The notes below the pieces were generated by a model. That model was not told the origin of the DNA and did not search any database. It saw only the letters and a list, made by a program, of their open reading frames with translations. 64,000 nucleotides of DNA from Candidatus Pelagibacterales bacterium. GTDB lineage: Bacteria > Pseudomonadota > Alphaproteobacteria > Pelagibacterales > Pelagibacteraceae. The position numbers were made by a program, and so were the translations under genes. Shown here in pieces: positions 1,727 to 41,437 of this stretch; position 1 is the first letter of the stretch; every line of letters starts with the position of its first letter. The DNA lies in NCBI GenBank assembly GCA_947497305.1, contig CANMFY010000001.1, forward strand, positions 1 through 64,000, written 5' to 3'.

Positions 1727-2106
1727 TAGAAAATTTTGAATTTTTTACTATCGCAAACATATAACTTCAACGGTTTATTTTCATTTTTTGGTAACTCTTG
1801 GCACTTACCATTAAAACACACACTCCAATTCTTTATATTCGTCTCAGATGTCGCAAGTAGAATTTCATCCTTTGTGCTTACTTTTGGACTATAAACATAC
1901 CATCCTTTTACTAATTTTGAATTCTCAGGCGGTTCCATGCCGGCACCAGAACCTTTAATGCGAGCTTCAACAATTTTAAGTTTGGAATTAATAATTTTCC
2001 AGTCTTCCTGCCACTCAGTTTTTTCAACAGAATGAAACCATGTCAAAGTAAAAAAAGAAACTGCAAAAGTTGTTATTTTGGTTCCTGCTAAAACACAAAG
2101 ACTCAT
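1726..2106 (-). CDS. DUF1850 domain protein, TAXI-TRAP associated
   Basis: A 126-residue protein of unknown biochemical role that matches the DUF1850 family, usually found next to TAXI-type TRAP transporters. Recognisable family features are the [14 protein letters not shown] segment (residues about 19-32), the GAGM motif near residue 54 and the GW pair near residue 68. The hydrophobic N-terminus may be a membrane anchor or signal. Both ends use TAATG overlaps: the start is fused to the permease stop and the stop to the aconitase start. A role as an accessory factor of the transporter is inference from neighbourhood only. Confidence 0.8.
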
Positions 2107-4205
2107 TAAGTTTTTGAATTTACCCTTCTAAATTTTAGCCATCTGTAAATTATAAATAATATCATTAACCCAAAGCCTAATTCATCAGTAATTGGAATTG
2201 CAGCTATCAGTAGTATGGAAACACAAAGACAAATAATTCTCTCAAGTATATTTAGTGGCGCGTTCATATAACCAACGGCGCACATCCCTAAAAATAACAT
2301 TGCGATAAGAGCTTTAATTGAAATATAGCTGACGGAAGTTATAATAGTAAAAACATCTTTGTTTTCAAGTCCCTGCAACATCAATTCTGGACTATAAACC
2401 GCCATAAAAGGTACAACAAATCCTGCCACTGCTAATTTTACTGCTTGTAAAGAAATCTTAAAACCACTTTCCTTTGCGAACGGAGCTGCAGCAAAACATG
2501 CCAAAGCAACTGGAGGTGTCAGATCAGCCATAATACCAAAATAAAATACGAACATATGACTAACAAGAAGCGGAACGCCTAATTTTAATAAAGCTGGTCC
2601 AGCGATCGCAGATGTTATTATATAATTTGGTATAGTTGGAATTCCCATTCCAAGAATAAGACAAACAATCATTGTTAAGATTAAGGATAATAACAAACTG
2701 TTTTCTCCGACTTTTATTATGTACTGACCAAAAGTATTTGCTGCACCTGTTAGTGTTAATGTACCAATCACCACTCCTATTACTGCACATGCAACGCCAA
2801 CTGGTAAAGCAGCTTTTCCACCTTCAGCAAGAGCGTCTCTACACGAAAGTAATGTTTCTCTGCCACCTTTAAATACAAAATTAATAAAAACTAATATTGA
2901 TATTGAAATTACGATAACTTTTATTCCAATTTCAAAAAATGATGCGGAGACTAAACCTAATATAATCCAGAACAGTACTCTTTTGTAACTCGAAAGCTTA
3001 CCCGCTATCGGAGCTCCGAGAATTAAAAAAACTACAAAAGCTAGACCAATAGTCCCAGCATATAAAGGAGTAAAACCTGAAAAAAGTAAATAAACTAATA
3101 TGATTAAAGGAATAGTTAAATACCAATTTTTTTTTAAAGCTTGATAAGCAGAGGGAAGTTGATCTTTGGGAATTCCAAGTAAATTTTTCTTACCTGCCTC
3201 TAAATAAACCATCCACCAGCATGCTATATAATAAAGAATTGCAGGTATAATTGCAGCTTTTACTATTTCTATATATTTTACGCCTAAAGTTTCTGCCATA
3301 ATGAAGGCAACTGCCCCCATAACCGGAGGCATAATTTGTCCCCCCATGGATGAAGTTGCCTCTACGCCTCCCGCAAAAGCCGATGAGTAGCCATACTTTT
3401 TCATTAAAGGTATTGTAAATTGACCTGATGTTACAACATTTGCGATTCCTGATCCTGAAATTGTTCCCATTAACGCAGAAGATGCAACGCATACTTGAGC
3501 TGGACCGCCCCTTGTATGACCAAACAAACCTAAGGCGACATCATTAAATAATTTTATCATTCCAGCACGCTCCATAAATGAGCCAAACAAAATAAATAAA
3601 AAGACAAAAGTGCTCGAAACATAAGTTGGAATTCCATAAATACCCTCTGTTCCATAGCTCATATGTTCAACGATTTGTCTAAAATCATAGCCACGATGCT
3701 GAAGCATCCCAGTCAAGTAGTTGCCAAAAAAACAATATAATAAAAAAATTCCTGCGATTAACGAAAGGGCATAGCCCATAACTAACCATGCGGCGATAAA
3801 AACAAGAATAACTGCTGTTACACCAAAAATTATATCTATTAACAGTAAGTCAGTAGTACGAATAAGAAGAGCGTCATACTGAACAGTTTGATAAATTGCA
3901 ACAAACAAACTTAAAAGTCCCCCTGCCCAAGAAATAATTTTTAAAAATTTATTATTTTTTTTAAGTGCACAAACTAACGGTAATGCCAATAACCCTAAAA
4001 AACCTACATGCACTGCTCTTAATATTTGACTTGGTAAATCTAATAAATGTGCAGCGGTTACAACTTGAAAAACTGAAAACGTGATAGCAATATAAAATAA
4101 TACTTTTCCCTCAAAAGAGCTTGGAAAACTTGCAATAGAAGGATCGTAATATTCAGCCGAGCTAAACTCGGCTGAGTCTTTAGTGGTATTTTGGTTTTTA
4201 TTCAC
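2106..4205 (-). CDS. TRAP transporter permease, fused 4TM/12TM (TAXI type)
   Basis: Large inner-membrane protein of 699 residues with many hydrophobic segments, matching the fused DctQ-DctM permease of TAXI-type TRAP transporters. These use ion gradients and a periplasmic binding protein to import small, often carboxylated, solutes. The TRAP large-subunit signature is visible around residues 230-300 (GSGIANVVTSGQFTIPLM followed by GGQIMPPVMGA) and again near 510-525 (GMGIPTIPNYI). The start is GTG at 4205. A GGAAGA stretch abuts it too closely to be an ideal ribosome binding site, but no better in-frame start is seen. The binding-protein gene lies 45 bp upstream and the DUF1850 gene overlaps downstream. 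Substrate cannot be assigned. Confidence 0.9.
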   Translation of the reverse strand: MNKNQNTTKDSAEFSSAEYYDPSIASFPSSFEGKVLFYIAITFSVFQVVTAAHLLDLPSQILRAVHVGFLGLLALPLVCALKKNNKFLKIISWAGGLLSLFVAIYQTVQYDALLIRTTDLLLIDIIFGVTAVILVFIAAWLVMGYALSLIAGIFLLYCFFGNYLTGMLQHRGYDFRQIVEHMSYGTEGIYGIPTYVSSTFVFLFILFGSFMERAGMIKLFNDVALGLFGHTRGGPAQVCVASSALMGTISGSGIANVVTSGQFTIPLMKKYGYSSAFAGGVEATSSMGGQIMPPVMGAVAFIMAETLGVKYIEIVKAAIIPAILYYIACWWMVYLEAGKKNLLGIPKDQLPSAYQALKKNWYLTIPLIILVYLLFSGFTPLYAGTIGLAFVVFLILGAPIAGKLSSYKRVLFWIILGLVSASFFEIGIKVIVISISILVFINFVFKGGRETLLSCRDALAEGGKAALPVGVACAVIGVVIGTLTLTGAANTFGQYIIKVGENSLLLSLILTMIVCLILGMGIPTIPNYIITSAIAGPALLKLGVPLLVSHMFVFYFGIMADLTPPVALACFAAAPFAKESGFKISLQAVKLAVAGFVVPFMAVYSPELMLQGLENKDVFTIITSVSYISIKALIAMLFLGMCAVGYMNAPLNILERIICLCVSILLIAAIPITDELGFGLMILFIIYRWLKFRRVNSKT

Positions 4206-4250
4206 TCTTCCAATCTAAACCAATAGAAATAATTAGTTTATTTTTTGGTA

Positions 4251-5198
4251 CTACTTAATTAACCCCTTTTCCTTGTAATATTTTGTAGCGCCAGGATGAA
4301 GAGGTAGTGGCGGATTACTTGCCGCATCTTTCACATTGATATCTTTAGCTGCAGAATGTGCTGCTACTAAAGCTGGAAGATTCTCATAAAACAACTTAGT
4401 CATTTGGTAAGCTGTTGCATCAGATACATCTTTTCTTGTAACCAAATAATTTACAATTGCTGTTGTGCTTACAGCTGCAGTTTGTCCTTTATAAGTTTCG
4501 GCAGGAATTGTTCCTGGAATAAATGGAGCTCCCATTTTTTTAACAACATCCGCAGGGACGGCTACAACATTTATTTCAACAGAGTTTGCTAAATCTTTAA
4601 GTGAAGCAACACCCAGTCCGGCTGATTGTAAAGTTGCATCTAATTGCCTATTTTTAATAAGCTCAACTGATTCAGCAAAAGGTAAATACTCAACTTTACC
4701 TAAATCTTTATAACTCATGCCTGCAGCAGCAAGAACTGCGCGTGCATTTAATTCAGTTCCAGATTTTGCGGCACCAACAGAAATTCTTTTTCCTTTTAAA
4801 TCTGCTAAAGTTTTTATATTAGATCCTTTTGAAGCAACTATTTGAACGTAATTTGGATAAATAGCTCCAATAATTCTCAATTTGTCCAATTTGTTTTTAA
4901 AACCTGCATCTTCATTACCTGCCCAAGCATCTTTTGCTGAATCACCCAAAACGAAAGCTATTTCTCCTTTGCCTTCTTGTAGTAAATTTAAATTTTCTAC
5001 AGATGCCTTAGTAACTTGAACTTGCACTTTAGAACCTTTGATATTATCACCGTAAATCTTAGTTAATGCCGAACCAAGAGGATAGTAAACACCTGCGGTT
5101 CCACCAGTAAGAATATTTATAAATTCCGCTGACTGCGCCTTAGCAGCATTTGAGGTTAATAATAAAGCAGCTATTAAAGCTGATATTTTTTTTAACAT
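4251..5198 (-). CDS. TAXI family TRAP transporter solute-binding protein
   Basis: Periplasmic substrate-binding subunit of 315 residues. It has a typical signal peptide (basic start, hydrophobic core, likely cleavage after AKA near residue 21) followed by the family opening INILTGGTAGVYYPLGSAL. Other TAXI hallmarks are KGKRISVGAAKSGTELNA (about residues 130-150) and the CC-free, glycine-rich ligand cleft. First gene of a transcript that continues into the fused permease, the DUF1850 gene and aconitase. TAXI proteins in other organisms have been linked to glutamate and 2-oxoglutarate; the ligand here is unknown. Confidence 0.9.
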   Translation of the reverse strand: MLKKISALIAALLLTSNAAKAQSAEFINILTGGTAGVYYPLGSALTKIYGDNIKGSKVQVQVTKASVENLNLLQEGKGEIAFVLGDSAKDAWAGNEDAGFKNKLDKLRIIGAIYPNYVQIVASKGSNIKTLADLKGKRISVGAAKSGTELNARAVLAAAGMSYKDLGKVEYLPFAESVELIKNRQLDATLQSAGLGVASLKDLANSVEINVVAVPADVVKKMGAPFIPGTIPAETYKGQTAAVSTTAIVNYLVTRKDVSDATAYQMTKLFYENLPALVAAHSAAKDINVKDAASNPPLPLHPGATKYYKEKGLIK

Positions 5199-5333: not shown

Positions 5334-5738
5334 ATGACCAAAGAAAAAATTAGTAAATCAAATTCAGAATGGCAGACAATTCTATCTGAAAATGAATATA
5401 AAATTTTACGTGAAGAGGGAACAGAGCGGGCGTTTACGAATAAACTTTACAACGAACATAGAGAGGGAAATTATTATTGCAAGGGCTGTAACTCAAAACT
5501 ATTCAGCTCTAAAATGAAATTTGATAGTGGCACAGGCTGGCCTTCTTTTTTTGATTCATACAAAGATGCTTTCGAGACAAGCACAGATTATAAATTGATC
5601 TATCCAAGGACAGAATATCATTGTGCAAAGTGTGGTGGACATCACGGACATTTATTTAATGATGGCCCAGAACCTACAAATAAAAGATACTGCAATAACG
5701 GAACTGCATTAAGATTTGTTCCGGAAAACTTAGATTAA
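5334..5738 (+). CDS. msrB: Peptide-methionine (R)-S-oxide reductase
   Basis: Reduces the R epimer of methionine sulfoxide in proteins. The 134-residue length fits a single-domain MsrB. Zinc-binding cysteines are present as CKGC (49, 52) and CAKC (97, 100). The catalytic cysteine is C120 in RYCNNGTALRF, which varies from the more usual RYCINSASLRF. GTGWPSF (about 66-72) is also conserved. No signal peptide is visible, so it should act in the cytoplasm. It is followed after 2 bp by a thioesterase gene, and msrA lies convergent just beyond. Confidence 0.95.
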   Translation: MTKEKISKSNSEWQTILSENEYKILREEGTERAFTNKLYNEHREGNYYCKGCNSKLFSSKMKFDSGTGWPSFFDSYKDAFETSTDYKLIYPRTEYHCAKCGGHHGHLFNDGPEPTNKRYCNNGTALRFVPENLD

Positions 5739-5740
5739 TT

Positions 5741-6133
5741 ATGAATATAAAATCAGAAGTTAGTAAAAAAGGTTTTATAAAACATATTGGAGGAATTGAA
5801 TTTAAAAAAATATCAGAGAATAATTTTGAATTTAAAACTTTAGTAAAAGAATTTAATTTAAATTCTCAAGGCATAAGTCACGGAGGTTACTTAGCAACTA
5901 TTCTCGATAGTGGAATGGGGTCAGCAGCACATATGGTAATTGGTGAGGGTAAAAATTGCGTCACAATATCATTAGATATAAAATTTATAGGAGGGTCTAA
6001 AGAAAATGATATTTTAGTTGGCAAGGTACTAATTACTAAAAAAACTCAATCTCTAGTTTTTGTAAAAGCCGATTTATTTAAATCTGAAAATATTATTGCT
6101 TCTGCATCTGGTATTTGGAAAATTTTAAAATAA
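5741..6133 (+). CDS. PaaI-like hotdog-fold thioesterase
   Basis: A 130-residue single hotdog domain of the PaaI/YbgC-like acyl-CoA thioesterase group. The active-site region is visible as GISHGGYLATILDSGMGSAA (about residues 44-63), with the family's HGG followed by the acidic residue in the long helix. Substrate is unknown; the family hydrolyses aromatic or medium-chain acyl-CoA esters. It starts 2 bp after the msrB stop, so the two are probably co-transcribed, and it ends 1 bp before the convergent msrA stop. Confidence 0.85.
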   Translation: MNIKSEVSKKGFIKHIGGIEFKKISENNFEFKTLVKEFNLNSQGISHGGYLATILDSGMGSAAHMVIGEGKNCVTISLDIKFIGGSKENDILVGKVLITKKTQSLVFVKADLFKSENIIASASGIWKILK

Positions 6134-6134
6134 A

Positions 6135-6704
6135 TTAATTCCAAACTTCTTTTAATCTCTCTAAACGTCTGCAACCCTTAACATATGCAAAATATTGGGA
6201 CGGGTTTTTTTTATAATATTGTTGATGATATTCTTCCGCAGGATAGAAATTTTTAAATTCTGTGAATGATGTTTTAATCTTATCAACTTTTAAAGATTTA
6301 AATTCTTTAATAGACTGATCAATAAATCTTCGCTCAGAATTGTTTTGATAAAATATAGCTGATGAGTAAGATTTGCCGCGATCGCAAAATTGCCCACTTC
6401 CGTCATAAGGGTCTATATTTATCCAGAAATTCCTAAGTAATTCTAAATAAGTAATTTTGTTTGGGTCGTAAGAAACTTTTACAGTTTCTATATGACCTGT
6501 GCGGCCGGAGACAACTTGTTGGTAAGTTGGATTTACAACTGTACCTCCACTATAACCAGAAACAACTTTATTAACTCCTTCTAGTTTGTCAAAAACAGGT
6601 TCCATGCACCAAAAACAGCCACCTGCAAAATAAGCTAGCTTCTCTTTAGAAAAACTATTTTGATTAAAAAAAAATATAAGAAATATTATTAATAGTTTTT
6701 TCAA
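6135..6704 (-). CDS. msrA: Peptide-methionine (S)-S-oxide reductase, exported
   Basis: Reduces the S epimer of methionine sulfoxide. The catalytic motif GGCFWCMEPVF is present with nucleophile C30. The length of 189 residues is normal for a single-domain MsrA plus leader. The first 20 residues (two lysines, a strongly hydrophobic core, then NSFSKE) look like a signal peptide, so the enzyme is probably periplasmic, unlike the leaderless MsrB nearby. The start overlaps the csiD-like stop by 4 bp (ATGA), making this the last gene of a seven-gene minus-strand operon. Confidence 0.93.
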   Translation of the reverse strand: MKKLLIIFLIFFFNQNSFSKEKLAYFAGGCFWCMEPVFDKLEGVNKVVSGYSGGTVVNPTYQQVVSGRTGHIETVKVSYDPNKITYLELLRNFWINIDPYDGSGQFCDRGKSYSSAIFYQNNSERRFIDQSIKEFKSLKVDKIKTSFTEFKNFYPAEEYHQQYYKKNPSQYFAYVKGCRRLERLKEVWN

Positions 6705-7618
6705 TTATAAAAAACTCCGCGTTGGCGCAAAAGTTCTCTCTGTAAATCTTTGTTTTCAACAAAAGGTTGTCGTCCATGAAGCATAAAATAATTATTTGAA
6801 AAGATTGAGCAACCTGGAGGAAGCTTAAATATAATTTTATGTTTACTATTTTCTAAAGATTGTGAAAGATTATTTAAAAATAAGCCTTGGTCCATATTTT
6901 GGGGCTCGGGGAATTGATCAATATAAGAAATCACTGGCTTTCCATTGCTATCTTTAAAAAAAACTGGATGAGTTACTTTATAATCTACGTTTTTACTTTT
7001 TGGTGAACCCCAAATAAAATCACTTTGCCCAACAGGATGGTTAAAAAATTTATTGCAATCTTCCCAATCATCCAAATGAAGTAATACGCTTTCACCTCCT
7101 TGGACGTTTTTTTCTTTGATTTTAGTCATTAACAACCAATCTGTTTTTTCTTTAACGTACGTTCCGTCTGTATGAAGATCTAATCTTTTGTAAGCTTTTC
7201 TTAAATAGGAGTCGCTACTATCTACATGTTTTACTTCAAAACGCGCATAATACTTTCCAGTCATTGCATCAAAATTTGGTAGACCCACCAAATGGGTAAG
7301 CGCTGTTGAAAGTTTTACTAAAAATTTATCATCTGTAACATCTGAATTAAATTTTTCAGGACCCACAACAAACGCTCCGTAATCTCTATCTATTAATATT
7401 TTTTTAAATAAATTTCTAATTTTATTTTCAAAAATTTTATTAAATTCATCAGCGACGAAAAATCTTAGGAATGGCTTAAGTTCAAGATCTTGAATGTCAA
7501 TGGGAGTAAATTTTTTCACAAGTTCCTCAATTGCGGATTGTGAAATATTTATTGAAACGAGTCTTTTACTTTGAGAGTGAGTGGAAATTTCTAATCCTTT
7601 TATATTTTCAAATGTCAT
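6701..7618 (-). CDS. glaH: CsiD/GlaH-family 2-oxoglutarate Fe(II) dioxygenase
   Basis: Matches the CsiD family; E. coli CsiD (GlaH) hydroxylates glutarate to L-2-hydroxyglutarate with 2-oxoglutarate and O2. The iron triad is visible as H149-x-D151 in LDLHTDGTY and H281 in MLHGRQPF. The C-terminal RELLRQRG carries the likely 2-oxoglutarate-binding arginine. Length is 305 residues against about 325 for E. coli, with a shorter N-terminus. It abuts azlD upstream with no gap and overlaps msrA downstream. No L-2-hydroxyglutarate oxidase (lhgO) or lysine-degradation gene is next to it, so the true substrate in this context is open. Confidence 0.85.
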   Translation of the reverse strand: MTFENIKGLEISTHSQSKRLVSINISQSAIEELVKKFTPIDIQDLELKPFLRFFVADEFNKIFENKIRNLFKKILIDRDYGAFVVGPEKFNSDVTDDKFLVKLSTALTHLVGLPNFDAMTGKYYARFEVKHVDSSDSYLRKAYKRLDLHTDGTYVKEKTDWLLMTKIKEKNVQGGESVLLHLDDWEDCNKFFNHPVGQSDFIWGSPKSKNVDYKVTHPVFFKDSNGKPVISYIDQFPEPQNMDQGLFLNNLSQSLENSKHKIIFKLPPGCSIFSNNYFMLHGRQPFVENKDLQRELLRQRGVFYN

Positions 7619-7951
7619 TTAATTAAAATATAAATTTAGTATACCAAATAAAATTACTCCGAATAAAGAGGAAAAAAGTACATTTTTTTTACTTGCAAAA
7701 AGTACTAAAATTGTAATTGCAGCAACCAGAAGCCTTACTAATGTTGATGTTTCCTCTAATGCTCCTACTGGGTGAATAAATATTCGTGCAATTAAAGCGG
7801 CTAAAATGCCGTATGAGATACAGGATACAAATTTAAATATTTTCCCCTCTTCATTAACAAATTCTGATGAGAACACTCCCAAAAATCTTGGTAAATAGGT
7901 TGCTAAAGCCGAAATTACAATTGCTGAATAAATATAAGTATCGAACATCAT
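7619..7951 (-). CDS. azlD: AzlD family amino acid transport protein
   Basis: Small 110-residue membrane protein with three to four hydrophobic segments, fitting the AzlD subunit of branched-chain amino acid exporters. It opens with a conserved ALATYLPRFLGV-type segment (residues about 15-26). It directly follows azlC with no intergenic bases and directly precedes the csiD-like gene. AzlC and AzlD are expected to form a two-component exporter, possibly for branched-chain or other hydrophobic amino acids. Confidence 0.85.
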   Translation of the reverse strand: MMFDTYIYSAIVISALATYLPRFLGVFSSEFVNEEGKIFKFVSCISYGILAALIARIFIHPVGALEETSTLVRLLVAAITILVLFASKKNVLFSSLFGVILFGILNLYFN

Positions 7952-8647
7952 TTATCTAATAAAAAACCAGTAAGAAATACTACCTCCAATAATTCCTGCA
8001 AAAAGTACTGACCAATCTGGTGTTAACAGAAAAAGAATTGGAGCCAAAATAGCTGACAAAAAAACTGTTAAAACAATATGTGGCTTGTTTAAAACCGAAA
8101 CAATCATACACATGAAATAAATTGGATTAAGAAATATCACTGCAACAAAAATTTCTTTGCTTATAATCTCAGCTGAAAAAAAACCAATAACAGTTGAAAT
8201 CGTTGATAAGATCCAAAGAGTTGATCCCAGTCCTAAAAAAAAGTTAAATCTATTTTCTTTAGTAATGCGATTGTAATTTGAAAGCATGTAAACCCAACTA
8301 GTTACAGCTATAAAATGTGCTAAAAAATAATAATGCCACCTAGGTCTATTCTTTTGCCTGATCACTGGAACAAGATTTACTGTCATTGGATATAATCTTG
8401 CATTTGTTAAAAAGACAGCAATTAAAATATTTAATAAGGTGCCATTTACAATTAAAGTTTCTGCCATCACTACTTGTCCGGGAAGAGCAAAACCAATAAG
8501 TGTAGATAGAAAACTTTGTGTAACATTTAAACCTGTATTTTTAAAAAGTGCTCCTAATGCAAAGAAACTTGCAGCAAGACTTATCCCTGGTATTCCAAAA
8601 CCAGCAAGACAACCTCTTTTAAAGTTATTATCAAAAGTTTTAATCAC
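7952..8647 (-). CDS. azlC: AzlC family branched-chain amino acid permease
   Basis: Large subunit of the AzlCD exporter, 231 residues with about six to eight membrane segments. The family N-terminus is recognisable: GCLAGFGIPGISLAASFFALG, then the GFALPGQVVMAETL segment and NARLYPMTVNLVPV (about residues 75-95). It overlaps the upstream LysE gene by 4 bp and abuts azlD. Two different amino acid exporters in a row point to removal of a metabolite, but the substrate is not evident. Confidence 0.88.
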   Translation of the reverse strand: MIKTFDNNFKRGCLAGFGIPGISLAASFFALGALFKNTGLNVTQSFLSTLIGFALPGQVVMAETLIVNGTLLNILIAVFLTNARLYPMTVNLVPVIRQKNRPRWHYYFLAHFIAVTSWVYMLSNYNRITKENRFNFFLGLGSTLWILSTISTVIGFFSAEIISKEIFVAVIFLNPIYFMCMIVSVLNKPHIVLTVFLSAILAPILFLLTPDWSVLFAGIIGGSISYWFFIR

Positions 8648-9261
8648 AAATTAATTTTTGTGCTTAAAATTTTATATGCTAATAACATCAAAATACATCC
8701 GGATAACCTACTTATAAGGTTTGGATAATTTTTTAGGAAATTAGAAATTTTGCTTGCAATACCAGCATAAGTAGCCAAAAAGAAAAAATCTAAACTCACA
8801 TGAGTAATTAATAAGATTATAAAATGAATTAAAAAATTATTATTTGGATCTAAAAAAGTTGGAAACATCACCAAAAAGAAAACTAAGGCACCTGGACTAA
8901 ATAATGCTGAAATAAACCCGTCTTTAAACAAGTTATAAGAAGAACGAGTATTGATATTTTGATTAACATCAATACTTGTTTTTCTTTTTAAAAAATTTAT
9001 GGCTAAATATATTAAGTAAAGTCCTCCAATCCATTTAAAAATATCTAAAATTTGCGGATATGCTTTCATTAAAGCATACATTCCAAATGTTGCGCAAATC
9101 ATTTGGATTATATTGGCAGAAACATCCCCTAAACCTGTCCATAAACTTTTGCTAAATCCATAGTTCATGGAATTGGTAATAATTAAAATTCTCTGGGGCC
9201 CTGGTGTTATTAAAAGAACAGTAATTACTTGGAGAAATAAGACGTAGTTATTTGGGATCAT
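8644..9261 (-). CDS. LysE/RhtB family amino acid exporter
   Basis: Inner-membrane exporter of 205 residues with about six hydrophobic helices. The LysE/RhtB signature TPGPQ near residue 20 varies slightly from the usual TPGPN, followed by GLGDVSANIIQM. The conserved GALVFFLVMFPTFLDP segment appears mid-protein. Family members export lysine, threonine, homoserine or related compounds. It sits 10 bp after the ferredoxin gene and overlaps azlC by 4 bp, so it belongs to the same transcript. Confidence 0.88.
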   Translation of the reverse strand: MIPNNYVLFLQVITVLLITPGPQRILIITNSMNYGFSKSLWTGLGDVSANIIQMICATFGMYALMKAYPQILDIFKWIGGLYLIYLAINFLKRKTSIDVNQNINTRSSYNLFKDGFISALFSPGALVFFLVMFPTFLDPNNNFLIHFIILLITHVSLDFFFLATYAGIASKISNFLKNYPNLISRLSGCILMLLAYKILSTKINL

Positions 9262-9271
9262 AAATTTAGAA

Positions 9272-9577
9272 TTATATTTTTAATCTCTCAACAACCTTAT
9301 TATTTATCAGATGAGACTCTAAAATCTCATTAATATCGTCTAAATTTTTATATGAATACCATATCCCCTCTGGATAAATCACCATGACCGGTCCAAGCTC
9401 ACACCGATCTAAACAGCCAGATTTATTAATTCTTATTTTTTTATTTAATTTCAAACTCTTAATTTTTATTTTTAATTCTGTCTGTAATTTCTCTGAGTCT
9501 TTTAGACTACAACAACCTTTCGGATTAGATTCTGGTCTTTTATTAATACAGCAAAAAACATGCTTCTCAAAAAACAT
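9272..9577 (-). CDS. Thioredoxin-like [2Fe-2S] ferredoxin
   Basis: A 101-residue thioredoxin-fold ferredoxin of the family that includes the NuoE C-terminal domain and the small (2Fe-2S) ferredoxin proteins. Cysteines are grouped as CC at 9-10, CC at about 22-23 and SGCLDRC near residues 53-58, followed by ELGPVMVIYP, which is characteristic. It abuts the SDR stop with no gap. It may supply electrons to a neighbouring enzyme or buffer redox, but the partner is unknown. Confidence 0.82.
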   Translation of the reverse strand: MFFEKHVFCCINKRPESNPKGCCSLKDSEKLQTELKIKIKSLKLNKKIRINKSGCLDRCELGPVMVIYPEGIWYSYKNLDDINEILESHLINNKVVERLKI

Positions 9578-10330
9578 TTAAATATTTTTAGTTAAAATTT
9601 TTACTAATAAAAAATATATAGGTCTTGGTAAAATTTTTAAAAATTTGAAAAGAAACTTCATTTGAAATGGAAAAGTGATGTCATACTTTTTTTGCATCAG
9701 CCCTTCAAAAATAACTTCAGCGGCTTTATCTGCCTCCATAATAAAAGGCATATCGAAGGTATTTTTGTCTGTAAGTCTAGACTTAACAAAACCAGGATTA
9801 ATAATACTCAAATAAATATTATTTTTATCGCAGTCAATTTTGATAGACTCGAAATAATTTATCATCGCAGCTTTAGAGGGTCCATAGGATGATGAGTTTG
9901 GAAGTCCTCCAAACCCAGCAAGAGAACTAATAGCAGCAAGATGACCAGAATTTTGAGATTTTAAATGAGGTAATAAAATTGAGAAACAGTTTACCATTCC
10001 AAAAAAATTTACTGCGAATGTTTTCTCAAATAACTCTAACTTAATATCAAAAGTATCATGGGGCTCATAATAACCTGAGCAATAGACTGTAAGATCGATT
10101 GTTTTAAATTCTTTTACAATTTCCCTTAAAATTCTTTGACAATTTTCTTTATCGGTAACATCTAATGAAAAAGTTGATATTTTTGTTCTATTTGAATTAA
10201 ATTCTAATTTTAAATTTTGTAATTTTTCTTGAGTTCTTGCTAATAAAATTAAATTATCACACTGATCTAAGTATTTCTTAGATAGTTCATAACCTATGCC
10301 AAAAGTAGCTCCTATAATTATAATATTCAT
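9578..10330 (-). CDS. Short-chain dehydrogenase/reductase
   Basis: Classical SDR of 250 residues. The Rossmann nucleotide motif is GATFGIG (about residues 7-13), a variant of TGxxxGIG. The catalytic serine lies in ISSLAG and the YxxxK motif in SYGPSKA (about residues 148-154). The NAG motif is replaced by CSG. The hydrophobic C-terminal tail (residues about 220-250) may associate with the membrane. It is the first gene of the seven-gene minus-strand operon, divergent from fumC across 60 bp. Substrate is unknown. Confidence 0.85.
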   Translation of the reverse strand: MNIIIIGATFGIGYELSKKYLDQCDNLILLARTQEKLQNLKLEFNSNRTKISTFSLDVTDKENCQRILREIVKEFKTIDLTVYCSGYYEPHDTFDIKLELFEKTFAVNFFGMVNCFSILLPHLKSQNSGHLAAISSLAGFGGLPNSSSYGPSKAAMINYFESIKIDCDKNNIYLSIINPGFVKSRLTDKNTFDMPFIMEADKAAEVIFEGLMQKKYDITFPFQMKFLFKFLKILPRPIYFLLVKILTKNI

Positions 10331-26279: not shown

Positions 26280-27349
26280 GATAAAATCTCATTAATTTCT
26301 CTTTCAAAAATTTCATTAACGTTTGTATTGATTAGTTCTTTTAATTTGGCCTTTTTTTCAAGTAATTTTTCTTTATTAAGTATAAGTTCATTTACTAAAC
26401 CAAATAATTTTTCACTGTTTAGATCTTGTTGTTCAATAAGCCAACAAGCCTTCATTCTAAAAAAATAATCTGCATTGTAAAATTGATGATTGTCCAAAGA
26501 ATCTTTAAATGGAATAGCTATGAATGGTATTTCTAGAAAAGCCAACTCTGCTAATGTTGAGGAACCAGCTCTTGTAATAACTAAATCTGATATCATCATA
26601 TATTTTTCAATATTTGGTTCAAAATTAAAAATAGTAACATTAGAATTATTTTTATAAAAGGGATCTATTTTCAGTTCTTGTTCTTTATTGCCAACTTGAT
26701 GAATAATTCTTATCTTTTTATTAAGTTTAAATAATTTATTTAATTACTGTGGTAATTGTTGAATAAAACTCTCAGCCCCTTGACTTCCACCTATAACAAG
26801 TAGGGTGAAATCGAAATTATAATCTTTTTTAAAATAATTATTATTTTTAGCTAAATAAATTTGCTCTCTTACTAACTGACCAACAAAAGTACTTTTATCT
26901 TTATCAATATTTTTTAAAGGATATCCCGTTAATACTTTTATCGAACTATTTAAAAAAAATTTATTTACCCTACCTACTACAGAATTAGTCTCATAAATAA
27001 TAAATTTTTTACCAAGTAATCTTGCTGCTAATAAAATTGGAAAAGAAGCATAACCACCAGAACCTATAATTAATTGTGGTTTTTTTGTTATAATAAGAAC
27101 AATTGAATATAAAAATGAAATTAATATTAAAAAAAGTGAATAAATTAATTTTAATCCTTTTTTTCCTGTGGGTGTTTTAACATTTATAAAAGTTAAATTT
27201 TTTAAATTATTATTATTTATAAATTTTTTTGCTCTAAAATCGGTAATAAGATCAATGTCAAAGTTTTTTTTTTTAAGATATTCTACTAATGCTACAGCTG
27301 GAAATATGTGACCTCCTGTTCCTCCAGTGCAAATAAAAATTTTTTTCAT
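26276..27349 (-). pseudogene. murG: murG interrupted by an in-frame TAA
   Basis: MurG is the membrane-associated GlcNAc transferase that makes lipid II from lipid I. Starting at the ATG at 27349 (MKKIFICTGGTGGHIFPAVAL), the frame stays open to codon 201. It then meets TAA at 26744-26746 (codon 202) and continues in the same frame to 26276. The total is about 357 codons, normal for MurG. The interrupted part reads LPQ-stop-LNKLFKLNKKIRIIHQVG, which aligns without gap to the family. Both the N-terminal GGTGGH loop and the C-terminal RAGSSTLAELAF motif are intact. There is no ATG, GTG or TTG in frame from the stop until 26599. The start overlaps the ftsW stop as TAATG. A sequencing or amplification error is as likely as a true lesion. 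Confidence 0.85.
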
Positions 27350-28473
27350 TATGATAATTTTCTTTTGGTAAAACCAAGTAATATTCCACATATTATTCCA
27401 CAACCAATCATGGATGATCCACCGTAACTTATAAAAGGAAATGTCATTCCTTTATTTGGAAGAATATTTAATGTAACTCCTAAATTAATAATAGATTGCA
27501 AATAAACCAGGCATGACAATCCTACTAAAGCTAGTTTCCTAAAAGAATTATTTTCAATACTAAATTGTGTAAAAATTCTTAAAAAGATAAAAGTTATTGT
27601 TAAAAAGATTATTAATATCATCAAAATCCCGAACTCCTCTCCTATGACTGCTAAAACAAAATCTGTATGCGCTTCAGGAACTCTTTCTTTTAATACTCCC
27701 TCTCCTATCCCTCTTCCTGTAAATCCACCTTGCTTAATTGACTCTAGAGCTTTTTGAGTTTGTAAATTATCTCCCTTACTTGGATCAATAAAAGTTTTTA
27801 ATCTTCTAAAAATATATGAAAATCGTTCATTAAATAACAATAATGTTGAAGCTATTCCTATAAAGATAGCAAGACCTAAAGAAATAATTAGAGCAATACT
27901 AATCCCCGAAACAAATATTAAAATTAACCAGACAGAGAAAATTAATAAACTCTGACCAACGTCAGGTTGATTTAGTAATAATAATAAAGAAAAAAACAGT
28001 ATACAAAAAGAATAAAAAATTCTTAATTTAAGATCTCCTATTTGTGAATTAGAAATAATTAAAGAACATAGTAATACAAAAAAAGGCTTATAAATTTCAA
28101 CAGGTTGAAATCTAAAAAAAATTAAATTTATCCATCTCTTGGAGCCTTTAACCTCGACTCCTAAGATTAAGACTAATAACAATAAAAAAGCTGTAATAAT
28201 AAAACCTAAAATACAATATTTCTCAATTTGTTTTGCATCTAAAAAAGATAATAAAGTTAAAATTAAAAAGCTAAGGAGTGCAAATAAAATATGCTTTATA
28301 ATTAAAAGGTAATCTGTTTTATATATTCTTTCAGAGGCAATATTAGAAGTTGAGGTATAAGCAAAAAATATACCTAGAAACATTAAAAAAATTATTGATA
28401 TAAAAAGAAGCTTATCAATATTTCTCCACCACAAGGCAAATTGATCTGTATTGGTTCTGCCAAAATTAATCAT
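27349..28473 (-). CDS. ftsW: Peptidoglycan glycosyltransferase FtsW
   Basis: SEDS-family septal peptidoglycan polymerase with about ten membrane helices in 374 residues. Family landmarks are KGSKRWI (about residues 110-116), FRFQPVEIYKP (about 121-131), QPDVGQSLLI (about 169-178), RVPEAHTDFVLAVIGEEFG (about 263-281) and FPFISYGGSSM (about 345-355). It lies between murD (4-bp overlap) and murG, in standard order. The partner transpeptidase FtsI is encoded upstream in the same cluster. Confidence 0.95.
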   Translation of the reverse strand: MINFGRTNTDQFALWWRNIDKLLFISIIFLMFLGIFFAYTSTSNIASERIYKTDYLLIIKHILFALLSFLILTLLSFLDAKQIEKYCILGFIITAFLLLLVLILGVEVKGSKRWINLIFFRFQPVEIYKPFFVLLCSLIISNSQIGDLKLRIFYSFCILFFSLLLLLNQPDVGQSLLIFSVWLILIFVSGISIALIISLGLAIFIGIASTLLLFNERFSYIFRRLKTFIDPSKGDNLQTQKALESIKQGGFTGRGIGEGVLKERVPEAHTDFVLAVIGEEFGILMILIIFLTITFIFLRIFTQFSIENNSFRKLALVGLSCLVYLQSIINLGVTLNILPNKGMTFPFISYGGSSMIGCGIICGILLGFTKRKLS

Positions 28474-29771
28474 GCGTATTTCTTTACCAATTTCTTAAAA
28501 ATATTACCTCGATGTTCGAAATTTTTGTATTGATCGAAGGAAGCAGCTGAAGGACTTAATAATATAACTTGTTTTAGTCCTGGATTTTTTTTTGCCTCAC
28601 TCAAAGCCGATAACAAAGCATTTTTTAGAGAGTGACTAGTATTATATTTTATAATGCTTTTAATTTGATTTAAAAAAAATTTGATTTTTTTTCCTATAAT
28701 ATAAGCTTTTAAAATAGATTTTTTAAATTTATTAATAATTATCTTATCTTTTTCTTTGGCAAGTCCTCCAACAATCCAATGAATATTTTTATAATTACTT
28801 AAGGCAACTTCAGTTGAGGAAAAATTTGTTGCCTTAGAGTCGTTTATAAAAGTTAAGTTATTTTTTATCTTGATAATTTCTTGTCGATGCGGAAGCCCTT
28901 TAAAGTTTTTTATTGTATTCAAATAAATATTGGTTGGAATTTTAAAATGTTTCGCAATTTTTGATAAAATATAAAGACAATTCTTAAAATGACTTCCTTT
29001 AAGTGAATTACTAATTAAATTATCTCTAATATTAAAATGAAAATTTCTTTTGATTAATTTAATATTTTTTAAATTATATTTCTTAAATTTAATAACTCTT
29101 AATATTTTAGATTGTTGATTATTACTCAGATCTAAAAAACCAACGCCTTCTTTAGTTAATCCCTTAAAAATTTTTAGTTTTGCTGAAATATAATTATTAA
29201 TATTTACATGCCTTTCAATATGATCTGGGCTTACATTTAATAAAACTGAAACTGTACTTGGTAACCGCGAGGAGTAATCTAGTTGATAAGAGGATAACTC
29301 CAGTACAAAAATAGCAGATTTTTGTTTATATGGTAAATCTAAGACAGGTGTTCCATAATTGCCTCCAATAAAAACATCTTTTTTTGCATTTTTTAATAAT
29401 TCATAAATCAATTTGCACATTGTGGATTTACCATTTGTGCCTGTAACCATAATAACTTTTTGATTGGTAATGGAGCTACAAAATAAATCTAAATCTGTAA
29501 TAATTTTATTTTTGTTTTTCTCAAAAAAAAATTTTTTAGAATGTGTGTAAATATTAATTCCTGGGGACAAAACTATAAAATCATAACTACAATCAAACCA
29601 ATTCTTATTTACTCGATATTTTTTTTTGAATTTTTCTCTTAACCTTTTATTATCATCCCAGCATTCGATATTAGCTTTATTTTTTTTTAATTGAGATAAA
29701 GTTGCATTGCCACTTATGCCAAGTCCAAAAACTAAAAATTTTTTTTGGCTACACTGTTCTAGTGAGAGCAT
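28470..29771 (-). CDS. murD: UDP-N-acetylmuramoylalanine--D-glutamate ligase
   Basis: Adds D-Glu to UDP-MurNAc-L-Ala. The N-terminal Rossmann motif is FGLGISGNATL (about residues 16-26). The ATP-binding loop VTGTNGKSTMCKLI is near residue 111. LELSSYQLDY (about 153-162) and the LLNVSPDHIERH motif (about 178-189) are intact, and LSPSAASFDQYKNFEHRG marks the C-terminal domain. Length 433 is normal. It overlaps mraY by 1 bp and ftsW by 4 bp. Confidence 0.95.
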   Translation of the reverse strand: MLSLEQCSQKKFLVFGLGISGNATLSQLKKNKANIECWDDNKRLREKFKKKYRVNKNWFDCSYDFIVLSPGINIYTHSKKFFFEKNKNKIITDLDLFCSSITNQKVIMVTGTNGKSTMCKLIYELLKNAKKDVFIGGNYGTPVLDLPYKQKSAIFVLELSSYQLDYSSRLPSTVSVLLNVSPDHIERHVNINNYISAKLKIFKGLTKEGVGFLDLSNNQQSKILRVIKFKKYNLKNIKLIKRNFHFNIRDNLISNSLKGSHFKNCLYILSKIAKHFKIPTNIYLNTIKNFKGLPHRQEIIKIKNNLTFINDSKATNFSSTEVALSNYKNIHWIVGGLAKEKDKIIINKFKKSILKAYIIGKKIKFFLNQIKSIIKYNTSHSLKNALLSALSEAKKNPGLKQVILLSPSAASFDQYKNFEHRGNIFKKLVKKYA

Positions 29772-30859
29772 TATCTTAATTTAAGAGATGCAAGACCTAC
29801 TAAAGCAAAAACTATCGCTATGATCCAAAATCGAATTACAACTGTAGACTCGCTCCAACCCTTTTTTTCAAAATGATGATGTAAAGGTGCCATTTGAAAA
29901 ACTCTTTTTCCTGTTAATTTAAATGACATAACTTGAATAATAACTGACAAAGCCTCTAACACAAAAAGTCCACTCACAATTGCTAAAACTATTTCATGTT
30001 TGGTTATAATTCCAATTGTTCCAAGTGCTGCACCTAAAGATAAAGAACCTGTATCTCCCATAAAAACTTTAGCTGGAGGAGAATTAAACCATAAAAATCC
30101 TAAACCAGCTCCGATCATTGCTCCTAGAAAAATACAAATTTCACCTGTATTTTTAATATAAGCTATCTGAAGATATTTTGAAAAAACGATATTACCCGAA
30201 ACATAAGCTATAAATGCAAAAGTTAACGCAACAAGAATAACTGGAACAATTGCAAGTCCATCAAGCCCATCTGTTAAATTAACAGCATTAGAAGTTCCAA
30301 CAATAACCACTAACCCAAATATAAAATAAAAAATCCCAAAGTTTAAAACAAAATTCTTAAACAATGGAAAGTAAACTTTATAATTAAGTTCTGGTCCAGT
30401 ATTTAAAATTACTAAATATATAACAATTATACCGCTTAAAAATTGCAAGAATAATTTCAATTTCGCACTAATACCTTTGGAATTATTTTTTATGACTTTT
30501 AAATAATCATCAACAAAACCTATTGCTCCAAAACTTAATAAACAAAAAATTAATATCAAAACATATTTATTCGTAAGATCAGCCCATAATAAAGTCGAAA
30601 ATAAAATACTTAAAATAATTATTAATCCTCCCATAGTAGGAGTTCCTGATTTTTTTATAATATGGGATAAAGGCCCGTCATCACGAATAGGCTGGCCGTA
30701 TTTTTGAAATGTTTTTAATTTAGCTATTAAACTTTCTCCGACTAAAAGTATAAATGCTAGTGAAGTTACAACTGAAATACCTGTTCTAAAAGTAATATAT
30801 TTAAAAACATTCAAAACACTAACGTCTGAGGAAAAATATTTAAAAAAAAAATAAAGCAT
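29771..30859 (-). CDS. mraY: Phospho-N-acetylmuramoyl-pentapeptide-transferase
   Basis: Integral membrane enzyme that makes lipid I from UDP-MurNAc-pentapeptide and undecaprenyl phosphate. Active-site motifs are GFVDDYLKV (aspartates near residue 116-117), NLTDGLDGL (near 194-202) and [12 protein letters not shown] (near 325-336). The [11 protein letters not shown] segment near residue 72 is diagnostic. Length 362 and about ten membrane helices fit. It sits between murF (2-bp gap) and murD (1-bp overlap). Confidence 0.96.
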
Positions 30860-30861
30860 TA

Positions 30862-32208
30862 CTAAAATTTCTTGAAAAAATTAAATAACCCAATTCTATT
30901 GGATGATTTGACTAACAAAATATCATTATTCTCAACAAGTTTGAAAAGATTTTGTTTGAGCAGACTAATATTTTTAATCAATAGGCCTTTTTTGCTGTGG
31001 TTTAGCTTTTGATAAGTATATCTAACCTCCGAACCTACGCAAAAAACTTTATCTATATTAGTTTTGTTTAATATTTTTGCTACTTGCTGATGATAATATT
31101 TTGATTTTTTACCAAGCTCTAGCATATCTCCCATAATTAAAATTTTTCTATAACCTTTTTTTTTTCTTAATGAGAAATTAAAAATTGACTGCTCAAGAGA
31201 TGCTGGATTGGAATTATAACTATCATTAACTAGAAGAATTCTTTTATTTTTAATTCTAATATTTTTTTCATTTCCCCTGCCTTCAGGAATTTTAAAATTA
31301 TTAAATTTATTTTTTAAAAGATTAATATTATGATTTAAATAATAATGAACGCATAATGTTGCTGCTACATTATATAAATAAGACTTATTCAAATTATTTA
31401 TTTTAAAATTAAATATTTTATTCTTTATTTTAAAAGATACTTTTGCTGAACTTTTTATAATTTGAATATCTGACTTTAAAAAACCAAAAGTTATAATTTT
31501 AATATTTTTTTGATTCGCAATTTTTTTTAAAGAATTAAAAAATTTATCATCTTTATTCAAAATAATAATTCCATTCTGGCAAATCCTATTCATAATCTCC
31601 GCTTTTGCCTTACAAATACCATCTATATTATTAAAATTTTCTAAATGCGCTGGGCCAATATTGGTTATTATTGCAATGTGCGGTCTTACTACATTAACAA
31701 GTTTATCAATTTCACCTTTAAAACTCATTCCTAGTTCAAAAACTCCATATTTATTATCAGAGCTTAGGTTTGCTAAGGAGTATGGAACTCCAAAATGATT
31801 ATTAAAAGATTTAGGTGAGGAGTGTGTTTTTCCAAATCTACTTAATGAACTTTTTAATAAATTTTTCAATGAGGTTTTTCCACAGCTACCGGTCACAGCT
31901 ATAATTTTAGCTTTGCTTCTCTGTCTTGCGTAAGATGCTAAATTTATTAAACTTTCTAAAGTATTTTTGGTCCTTATCGATCTTAAATTATTAGACTTTG
32001 TACTAATGACGGCTAAATTATTTTTTTTTTTTAATACTGTTTTAACATATCTATGGCCATCATCATTAACTCCTTTTATAGCAAAAAAAATTCCTCTATT
32101 TGAAACCTCTCTGCTATCTATTGCAACTTTATTAAAAAATAACTTTTTATTTATATTTGAATTAAAAACTAAATTAATTTCTTCGCTTGTATAAAGCTTT
32201 GATGCCAT
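30862..32208 (-). CDS. murF: UDP-N-acetylmuramoyl-tripeptide--D-Ala-D-Ala ligase
   Basis: Adds the D-Ala-D-Ala dipeptide to finish the cytoplasmic muropeptide precursor. [16 protein letters not shown] (about residues 31-46) is the UDP-substrate motif. The ATP loop is [14 protein letters not shown] (about 104-117). [11 protein letters not shown] (about 155-165) and [10 protein letters not shown] (about 325-334) are conserved. Length 448 is typical. It lies 1 bp after murE and 2 bp before mraY. Confidence 0.95.
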
Positions 32209-32209
32209 T

Positions 32210-33619
32210 TTATTTTAAGAAAAATTTAGATACTTTTTGATCGGAAAAATATTTTTTTTGATCATTTATAATCTGATAATTTTCATGTCCTTTGCCAGCA
32301 ATCAGTAAAGTACAATCGTTTTTAAGATTTTTAATGGCCAATTTAATTGCCATTTTTCTATCTAATATAATCTTTGATCTTAAACACCCTTTTTTAATTT
32401 GTTTAATAATTGAAGTAGGATTTTCATGTCTAGGATTATCATTTGTTAAATATATTTTTGAGGCAAATTGATTAGCTATTTTGCCCATTTTATATCTTTT
32501 TCCTTTATCCCGACCACCACCACAACCAAATACGACATCTACTTTCTTATTAAACTGTTTTGTTAAAGTTTGAAGACTTTTTTTTAAAGCATCTGGAGTA
32601 TGAGCATAATCAACTACTACAGCAGATTTTTTTTTATTACCCACATACTGCATTCGTCCAGTTGCAGTTTTTATTTTTATTAAAGTATTAATAATCTTAT
32701 CAGGATTTTTAATAGTTAAATATGAGGCTAACATTGCTGCAAATAAATTTTTGATTTGAAAGTCTCCTATTAGATTAACACTAATATTATATATTTTATT
32801 TAAAAAATTAATTTTTATTGCTTGTCGTTTTCCTAAAAAAAAATGTGAAATTAATTTAATGGTATTTCCTCTTGATCCAAAGGATAGAATTTTTATTTTT
32901 CTTTTATTGCAAATTTTTTTTAGTAATAAATATTCAGGAATATCTGTATCTATAATCGCAAAAGAATTTTTTTTTAACAAGTTTTTAAAAAGATAAAGTT
33001 TGGCATTTAAATAATTTTTTAAATTTTTATGATAATCTAAATGATCTTGTGTAAAATTAGTAAATATTCCTGCGCTGAAATTAATATTATCTAATCGATT
33101 TTGATGAAGCCCATGGCTTGAGGCTTCTAAGCACACATTTTCAATTCTTTTTTTTTTTAATAAATATAATTCTTTATGAACGGTAATAGTATCTGGAGTT
33201 GTAAGATTAGTTTTTTTAAATTTATTCTTAAAATTAATACCAAGTGTCCCAATTGCTGCTGAATTTATTTTAAGATTATTCAAAATCTGGTAGTAAAAAT
33301 TAGCAACTGATGATTTTCCATTTGTTCCAGTGACCGCAATTATATTATTTGGCTTTTTTTTATATTTAATAGAACAAGCTTCTGCTAAAAATTTTCTAAC
33401 ATTGCTGACTTTTAAATAATTTTTATTTTTAATATTTTTACTTGTTACAACTTTAGAAGCACCTTTGCTTAATGCCTCTGAACTATATAAGTTTCCTGAT
33501 TCCGTTAAACCATTAATTGCAAAAAAAATATCATTTTTTTTTATTTTTTTAGAATTGATAGAAAAATTTCTATTTTGATATTTTAAAGATTTAATTTTTT
33601 TACTTAGCATTGAAAGCAA
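32210..33619 (-). CDS. murE: UDP-MurNAc-tripeptide synthetase (meso-DAP type)
   Basis: Adds the third residue of the stem peptide. The ATP loop VTGTNGKSSVANF is near residues 94-106. The DNPRHENP motif (about 390-397) is the recognised indicator of meso-diaminopimelate specificity. The LEASSHGL motif (about 159-166) is also conserved. Length is 469 residues from 33619, or 466 from the second ATG at 33610, which would reduce the overlap with ftsI. It overlaps the ftsI end by up to 20 bp. Confidence 0.95.
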   Translation of the reverse strand: MLSMLSKKIKSLKYQNRNFSINSKKIKKNDIFFAINGLTESGNLYSSEALSKGASKVVTSKNIKNKNYLKVSNVRKFLAEACSIKYKKKPNNIIAVTGTNGKSSVANFYYQILNNLKINSAAIGTLGINFKNKFKKTNLTTPDTITVHKELYLLKKKRIENVCLEASSHGLHQNRLDNINFSAGIFTNFTQDHLDYHKNLKNYLNAKLYLFKNLLKKNSFAIIDTDIPEYLLLKKICNKRKIKILSFGSRGNTIKLISHFFLGKRQAIKINFLNKIYNISVNLIGDFQIKNLFAAMLASYLTIKNPDKIINTLIKIKTATGRMQYVGNKKKSAVVVDYAHTPDALKKSLQTLTKQFNKKVDVVFGCGGGRDKGKRYKMGKIANQFASKIYLTNDNPRHENPTSIIKQIKKGCLRSKIILDRKMAIKLAIKNLKNDCTLLIAGKGHENYQIINDQKKYFSDQKVSKFFLK

Positions 33620-38743: not shown

Positions 38744-38757
38744 GGAAAGTTATTTAA

Positions 38758-39123
38758 TTGCCAGTTAGTCTGTAAGCTGGGTTCTGTCATTGAAAACGGT
38801 AATTTATCTAGGTCTATTGTCGCCAATAGACTCGAGCAACCAACCCAAACAACTCACCCAAGATTAGGCTAGATTTAAATAAATTTAAATCATGTTGCTT
38901 CTATTTGGTCTTGCTCCCAGTGGGGTTTTCCATGCGGTTTTTGTTACCAAAAACCCGGTGTGCTCTTACCACACCTTTTCACCCTTGCCTTGATAAGGCG
39001 GTTTATTTTCTGTGGCACTATCCCTGAGGTTACCCTCGCCAGCTATTAGCTGGCACTGTCATCTTGTGGAGCCCAGACTTTCCTCTTTGAAAATATCAAA
39101 GCTACCATTCAACTAACTGGCAA
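38758..39123 (-). ncRNA. rnpB: RNase P RNA, bacterial type A
   Basis: Catalytic RNA that matures the 5' ends of tRNAs. On the minus strand the 5' P4 region reads GAGGAAAGTCTGGGCTCC and the 3' P4 region reads GACAGAACCCAGCTTAC, both diagnostic. The conserved AGGGTGAAAAGGTG and GGTAAGAGCACACCG internal segments are present. The ends pair perfectly over 11 bp (38758-38768 with 39113-39123) to form helix P1, which fixes the length at about 366 nt. It lies upstream of mraZ. Confidence 0.97.
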
Positions 39124-41360: not shown

Positions 41361-41437
41361 TGGTGGGCCCGCAGGGATTTGAACCCCGGACAACCCCGTT
41401 ATGAGCGGGGGGCTCTAACCAGCTGAGCTACAGGCCC
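41361..41437 (-). tRNA. tRNA with CAU anticodon, probably tRNA-Ile2
   Basis: A 77-nt cloverleaf on the minus strand with CCA encoded. The D-arm GCTCAGCTGGTTAGAGC, anticodon stem CCCCG/CGGGG, anticodon CAT (41401-41403) and T-arm GGTTCAAATCC are all clear. CAU could be Met or lysidine-modified Ile2. The acceptor stem GGGCCTG with C4 and C5 resembles TilS-recognised tRNA-Ile2. Its position 46 bp after rpoD also parallels ileX near rpoD in E. coli. Confidence 0.93.

Follow-up and report, generated by a model that had tools for sequence, protein, structure and literature searches.

Gene content of the locus

The sequence studied here, referred to as the window, is a 64,000-nucleotide stretch of DNA (positions 1 to 64,000 of contig CANMFY010000001.1, GenBank assembly GCA_947497305.1) from a freshwater member of SAR11 in the genus Fonsibacter, and its subject is a run of seven genes that includes csiD, the gene of a 2-oxoglutarate/Fe(II) oxygenase. 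We take Fonsibacter to be the group labeled LD12, and HIMB114 to be the strain labeled subclade IIIa. A common ancestor of subclade IIIa and LD12 is stated in an abstract. The genome assembly that contains the window (G000) comprises 734 kb in 74 contigs and is about 74% complete.

All seven open reading frames (ORFs) lie on the minus strand between positions 6135 and 10330. In the order of transcription, they encode a short-chain dehydrogenase/reductase (SDR), a ferredoxin, LysE, AzlC, AzlD, CsiD, and MsrA, with gaps of 0, 10, -4, 0, 0, and -4 bp calculated from the coordinates (Table 1). An initial annotation of this DNA had named the same families and had described gaps ranging from 4-bp overlaps to 10 bp; the names agree with the Pfam and NCBIfam matches, and the gaps agree with the coordinates. 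The genes for AzlC and AzlD are adjacent, and each product scored above its Pfam cut-off. For the LysE gene, the closest NCBIfam models were of the RhtB type, with scores below their cut-offs. The ferredoxin scored 81.2 bits against the 2Fe-2S ferredoxin model NF041612, also below the cut-off (150).

Table 1. Features of the csiD locus in the window
Feature	Position	Strand	Evidence and remarks
SDR, short-chain dehydrogenase/reductase	9578-10330	-	Pfam adh_short, 138.9 bits (cut-off 26.6); divergent from fumC
Thioredoxin-like 2Fe-2S ferredoxin	9272-9577	-	PF01257, 22.2 bits, just below the cut-off (24.8); outside the conserved core
Ferredoxin/LysE junction, 10 bp	9262-9271		metF-metE-metZ at this position in sister genomes; LysE-metF intergenic region of ~180 bp in G005
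LysE/RhtB-type amino acid exporter (putative), 205 aa	8644-9261	-	Pfam LysE, 106.9 bits (cut-off 25.6)
AzlC, large subunit of LIV-E type exporter (putative), 231 aa	7952-8647	-	Pfam, 82.5 bits (cut-off 32.1)
AzlD, small subunit of LIV-E type exporter (putative), 110 aa	7619-7951	-	Pfam, 55.7 bits (cut-off 23.7)
CsiD/GlaH-type 2-oxoglutarate/Fe(II) oxygenase, 305 aa	6701-7618	-	Pfam CsiD, 450.7 bits (cut-off 27)
MsrA, methionine-S-sulfoxide reductase, 189 aa	6135-6704	-	TIGR00401, 178.1 bits (cut-off 108.1); hydrophobic N terminus; TTG start
4HBT/PaaI-like hotdog thioesterase	5741-6133	+	Pfam 4HBT, 38.9 bits; convergent neighbor
MsrB	5334-5738	+	TIGR00357, 144.5 bits (cut-off 113.05); convergent with the run; neighbor kept in the genus

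Tight spacing in the run says little on its own, because 30 of the 41 same-strand neighboring pairs in the window (ORFs of at least 80 aa) are likewise at most 10 bp apart and because seven genes at positions 26744-35300 form a second same-strand run in which no gap exceeds 10 bp. A sequence scan gave chance-level numbers of both promoter-like sites (22, against 23.6 expected) and terminator-like sites (1, against 2.0 expected). The seven genes may now be one transcript, in which case the exporters and CsiD would come under the promoter of the SDR gene.

The seven-gene row is known from one genome

The conservation of the run was examined in the genus, represented by 13 genomes including that of the window. 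The ferredoxin gene was found in 11 of them, and in all 11 the SDR-ferredoxin pair adjoins fumC. In each of the 10 sister genomes with the ferredoxin, the next gene is metZ, located 3 to 5 bp away on the opposite strand; LysE adjoins the ferredoxin in the window genome only (0/10 sisters). Wherever the contigs reach far enough (G005, G028, G045, G059, G076, G080, and G085), a metF-metE-metZ block lies between the ferredoxin and LysE or AzlC. The contig of G065 stops inside metZ, and in G019, which gave no ferredoxin match, the SDR gene abuts metZ. Guessed from protein lengths alone, the inserted genes of the sisters had been candidates for a glutaryl-CoA route; their families are those of metF, metE, and metZ.

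In this one assembly, the met block is missing at the window locus, and two units now touch. The window genome does have a MetE, 71% identical to that of G005, on another contig (C30) and in another gene order. There, a met gene cluster encoding a PF01053 enzyme, a QueF-like protein, MetE, a MetZ-like protein, and an alpha/beta hydrolase is preceded by a SAM-V riboswitch (L249:2883-2948 on G000:C30; 51.4 bits, gathering score 41). A S-adenosylmethionine (SAM) riboswitch was also sought between LysE and metF in G005, where the match to SAM_alpha (L033:10596-10667) reached 16.3 bits against a gathering score of 36, with an E value of 0.32, and was not accepted. A terminator-like hairpin follows this weak match.

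The full row of seven genes thus looks like a rearrangement known from this one genome. The initial annotation had treated the seven genes as a single unit, and as a conserved unit they fail on the position of the ferredoxin-SDR pair in the 10 sisters. Five genes, LysE-AzlC-AzlD-CsiD-MsrA, are left as the Fonsibacter remnant of a cluster found across SAR11.

An AzlC-AzlD-CsiD core across SAR11

CsiD matches were found in 119 of the 197 genomes of the family. Eight of them, with E values of 6.8e-5 or weaker (G007, G051, G092, G130, G148, G163, G187, and G193), were counted as other oxygenases and dropped, leaving 111. Neighborhood maps were obtained for 95 of these 111 genomes, of which 91 could be assessed upstream and 91 downstream of CsiD; 41 had 7.5 kb of upstream sequence. 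The gene immediately upstream of CsiD is AzlD or AzlC in 71 of 91 genomes; when the five nearest genes on that side are considered, AzlC is included in 87 of 91. The four exceptions are G140 and G149, with AzlCD one insertion further upstream, and G046 and G129, with none before the contig end. The core arrangement is old and widespread in SAR11, so that this part of the neighborhood described in the initial annotation is conserved even if the seven-gene row is not. Literature searches on a link between CsiD and AzlC and on glutarate in SAR11, confined to the main texts of papers in one library, found no description of the cluster.

Further upstream, among the 41 genomes with 7.5 kb of sequence, 36 carry LivHMGF-type ATP-binding cassette (ABC) transporter genes and 37 carry LysE. 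Liv is missing from three Fonsibacter genomes (G000, G005, and G028) and from G032 and G048, in which DctP-DctQ-DctM is present in its place. The DctP of the latter cluster had its best match among solved C4-dicarboxylate-binding proteins, and the LivK of the clusters resembles Leu/Ile/Val- and urea-binding proteins, weakly. Downstream of CsiD (n = 91), we found TctC, directly or nearly adjoining, in 43 genomes, a gene resembling pyrroline-5-carboxylate (P5C) reductase in 37, MsrA in 6, a 2-hydroxyacid dehydrogenase in 2, and other genes in 3; MsrA also follows CsiD in two further loci whose contigs stop early. The genomes with MsrA in this position are from Fonsibacter and some of its relatives. 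BugD and terephthalate-binding proteins are among the nearest matches of the TctC proteins. Within the papers available to us, a literature search found no report on the ligands of SAR11 binding proteins. Genes of 352 to 362 aa near CsiD had been considered as dehydrogenases; this was rejected, since three of four tested proved to be PF05145 proteins and the fourth matched nothing. Some marine genomes carry insertions of genes between azlD and csiD, and one inserted gene (L179:6353-7222) encodes an inverse autotransporter beta-domain (PF11924).

The marine LysE-Liv-AzlCD-CsiD cluster is headed by the rhtB RNA element (RF01814), for example at L044:15919-16001. Of 68 named loci with LysE, 61 contain the core of the element, as do 3 of 53 LysE-bearing loci of the G-numbered genomes, whereas no g2 or g5 locus does. 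It was not found at the window, where the closest 22-mer had 7 mismatches.

In wider surveys, scores above the GlaH cut-off were obtained for CsiD in 147 of the 297 genomes searched in the order and in 4 of 385 in the class, and all of these belong to the family of the window. In a second family of the order, CsiD matches were weak (best E value, 9.3e-5), and one other class member (G247) has a relative at 205 bits, below the cut-off. In a tree of the SAR11 CsiD sequences rooted on that of Escherichia coli, each genus tested was monophyletic, and genera g1, g9, and g12 were grouped with a support of 0.943. The genus clades and this grouping indicate that CsiD was inherited rather than recently acquired. 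The pattern fits a gain near the base of the family, after which the gene would have been passed down with the genomes.

CsiD is most likely a glutarate 2-hydroxylase

The CsiD protein of the window scored 434.1 bits against the NCBIfam GlaH model NF002814 (cut-off 333), in agreement with the CsiD/GlaH-type oxygenase of the initial annotation. Its best structure matches were those of E. coli GlaH (E value, ~1e-81), to which it is about 45% identical. In the parts of the published work available to us, the iron ligands of the E. coli enzyme are given as H160, D162, and H292, the co-substrate contact as R309, and the glutarate contacts as R311 and G163 (PMC6265302). All six residues (E. coli numbering) are unchanged in every one of the 97 SAR11 sequences compared (94 distinct), that of the window included, and position 161 is T in SAR11 versus N in E. 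coli. Because every published contact residue is kept, CsiD is most likely a glutarate 2-hydroxylase, as judged from its sequence. It would convert glutarate, 2-oxoglutarate, and O2 to L-2-hydroxyglutarate, succinate, and CO2.

LhgO is rare among CsiD-bearing genomes

The usual partner of GlaH is LhgO. The LhgO model gave at least 276 bits in 13 of the 197 family genomes (10 above the cut-off of 299), all from genera g9 and g12, and 9 of these 13 bear CsiD. No LhgO match of that strength was found in the other 102 of the 111 CsiD-bearing genomes; among the CsiD-bearing genomes at least 90% complete and with at most 5% contamination, 47 of 54 had none. A divergent LhgO homologue was considered and rejected, as the best match in the family genomes other than these 13 was at most 168 bits. 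The initial annotation had remarked on the missing lhgO and had raised the question of its co-occurrence with csiD. Its remark is borne out by the window's own genome, which at about 74% completeness has no model match, and the survey answers the question: the absence of lhgO is the rule in the family, not a feature of this operon.

The published picture is different. According to the passages accessible to us, a 2018 survey found CsiD in 454 genomes and both CsiD and LhgO in 448 of them, with a criterion of >50% identity (PMC5974017). With this threshold, sequences like SAR11 CsiD would be left out. The Ldh_2 family was tried as a general stand-in for LhgO and rejected, since members were present in 6 of 12 genomes tested, including one of four genus genomes, and G000, G005, and G019 were not among the six.

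Exporters, MsrA, and the methionine neighborhood

Within the genus, CsiD is present in 5 of the 13 genomes (G000, G005, G028, G065, and, as split fragments, G080). In G045, G059, and G076, msrA follows azlD directly (1 bp), and csiD was not found in a search of the genome; G059 also lacks LysE. In G019, csiD and LysE are missing from the locus, and MsrA is on the other strand. Met genes are also close to the locus in G009 and G012, where metE is located about 9 to 14 kb from csiD. The retention of azlCD without csiD indicates that the exporter pair works without CsiD, and the retention of azlCD-msrA in three sisters is easier to reconcile with homeostasis of methionine or branched-chain amino acids than with the export of diacids.

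The literature on related exporters, as far as the sources could be consulted, is in line with this. Methionine and branched-chain amino acids are reported to be exported by BrnFE and YgaZH of the AzlCD family and by LeuE of the RhtB family (PMC8140960), and AzlCD of Bacillus subtilis exports several amino acids (PMC11005379). By analogy, AzlCD and LysE of the window are most likely amino acid overflow exporters, with methionine, branched-chain amino acids, or related compounds as putative substrates. Taken together, we infer, the exporters, MsrA, MsrB, and the met genes are most simply read as serving the homeostasis of methionine or branched-chain amino acids.

Other features of the window

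Just beyond MsrB, at positions 2106-5198, the window encodes a TAXI-type tripartite ATP-independent periplasmic (TRAP) transporter, consisting of a membrane protein and a binding protein. The binding protein resembles the structure 1us4, and the same position is held in several Fonsibacter genomes. The minus strand also carries a class A RNase P RNA (38757-39120) and a tRNA-Met (41361-41437).

Interpretation of the locus

We consider it probable, at roughly 60%, that the locus holds a GlaH-type CsiD within the remnant of a SAR11 cluster, in a homeostasis neighborhood to which the ferredoxin and SDR genes were joined by rearrangement. The locus would be what is left of a SAR11-wide LysE-LivKHMGF-type importer-AzlC-AzlD-CsiD cluster, the importer being absent from this locus in Fonsibacter. 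AzlCD, LysE, MsrA, and MsrB, together with metF-metE-metZ in the sisters, would form a methionine or amino acid homeostasis neighborhood, of which CsiD would be a separable passenger. The ferredoxin and SDR genes would have joined the run in this genome only, upon loss of the met block next to LysE.

Several observations weigh against this reading. In most of the family CsiD has stayed beside AzlCD, a linkage that would be unnecessary for a mere passenger, and the dicarboxylate-type DctP and TctC transporters of some clusters favor a shared diacid theme. No LhgO match (NF008726, E value of 0.001) was found in the 13 genus genomes, which include G000 and the ~99% complete G005. Two candidate stand-ins for LhgO were rejected: Mqo was found in 0 of 12 genomes tested, 5 of them from the genus, and the DAO family, with many members in marine genomes, gave only partial matches (at most 146 of 353 positions) in four genus genomes. 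The lack of LhgO and Mqo and the partial DAO matches leave the product of CsiD in the genus without a known consumer. Finally, the evidence for the junction comes from one assembly of an incomplete genome.

A broader idea, to which we give a low probability, is that in SAR11, a group that ranks with the most abundant bacteria of aquatic habitats, a glutarate hydroxylase has become detached from its usual partner LhgO and tied to a cluster for amino acid import and export. The L-2-hydroxyglutarate would then be taken up by an as yet unrecognized consumer or be released, perhaps through AzlCD, or CsiD would have a new substrate delivered by the importer. If true, any of these three would be an undescribed 2-oxoglutarate-oxygenase system. 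SAR11 dominates many waters, and a clade-wide route for C5 diacids or L-2-hydroxyglutarate would matter for carbon turnover. The survey sharpens the question to why the CsiD-bearing members of the family, unlike the published CsiD genomes, nearly all lack LhgO. Genera g9 and g12, which do have LhgO, offer themselves as controls.

Another proposal, which we regard as unlikely, is a dedicated SAR11 diacid system in which CsiD and AzlCD act together. AzlCD (and LysE) would carry glutarate, L-2-hydroxyglutarate, or an amino acid derivative of the C5-C6 range across the membrane, and uptake would vary among hydrophobic amino acid uptake transporter (HAAT)-type ABC, TRAP, and tripartite tricarboxylate transporter (TTT) systems. 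The AzlCD-CsiD linkage (87/91), the DctP-DctQ-DctM genes in place of Liv upstream of AzlC in G032 and G048, with a DctP nearest to C4-dicarboxylate-binding proteins, and the TctC after CsiD in 43 of 91 genomes speak for it. However, three sisters keep AzlCD without CsiD, the AzlCD-family members of known substrate in the sources cited above export amino acids, and the cluster LivK weakly matches Leu/Ile/Val- and urea-binding proteins.

It is rather doubtful that the CsiD of LhgO-less SAR11 has switched its substrate, for example, to an amino acid delivered by the Liv importer. The contrast between 102 of 111 genomes without an LhgO match and the 448 of 454 with both genes in the accessible part of the survey (at >50% identity) would agree with a switch, as would the amino acid transporters next to CsiD, and an identity of about 45% to E. 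coli GlaH allows such a change. Yet R311, which binds glutarate, and R309, which binds 2-oxoglutarate, are invariant in all 97 sequences, those of the LhgO-bearing g9 and g12 included.

That the ferredoxin-LysE junction is an assembly join, so that the run exists in no cell, is improbable. The junction occurs in one genome of 74 contigs and in none of the 10 sisters, but it is clean at the gene ends and lies within a 75.7-kb contig, and the metE of the same assembly is located on a separate contig, where the gene order differs. A single seven-gene pathway, as the initial annotation suggested, with the ferredoxin and SDR acting together with CsiD, is very improbable even though the genes follow one another unbroken on the same strand and no gap exceeds 10 bp, since the ferredoxin-SDR pair adjoins metZ in 10 of 10 sisters, tight gaps are usual in the window, and CsiD-type oxygenases need no ferredoxin.

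Comparison with known systems

One of the closest known systems is the CsiD/GlaH-LhgO pathway of E. coli and Pseudomonas putida. SAR11 CsiD is like its counterpart in belonging to the GlaH family and in its iron and substrate residues; it differs in that LhgO was found neither in the window genome nor in most CsiD-bearing genomes of the family. Moreover, among the genes identified at positions 5334-10330, csiD of the window has no adjoining gabD, gabT, gabP, or csiR, and amino acid exporters are found there instead.

For SAR11 itself, a study of polyamines states that cadaverine is likely metabolized to succinate via the lysine degradation pathway, and its figure includes a glutarate 2-hydroxylase ("gab") and an L-2-hydroxyglutarate dehydrogenase (ygaF) on the way from cadaverine to succinate for HTCC1062 and HTCC7211 (PMC8437039). 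In the figure, bold type marks the genes that are present. The glutarate 2-hydroxylase appears there as part of a pathway figure; the portions of the text available describe neither a gene cluster nor a link to AzlCD, a freshwater form, or a survey of LhgO.

In "Candidatus Pelagibacter ubique", an RNA element preceding rhtB was described in 2009, and livK, livM, and proC are named among its surroundings (PMC2704228, RF01814). Its locus is the same marine cluster as that of L044 and many named loci. The passages on the element that we could consult do not mention CsiD or AzlCD, and the window differs in that the element was not found there. By Pfam family, the putative exporters of the window belong with the AzlCD, BrnFE, and YgaZH (LIV-E) exporters and the LeuE and RhtB exporters.

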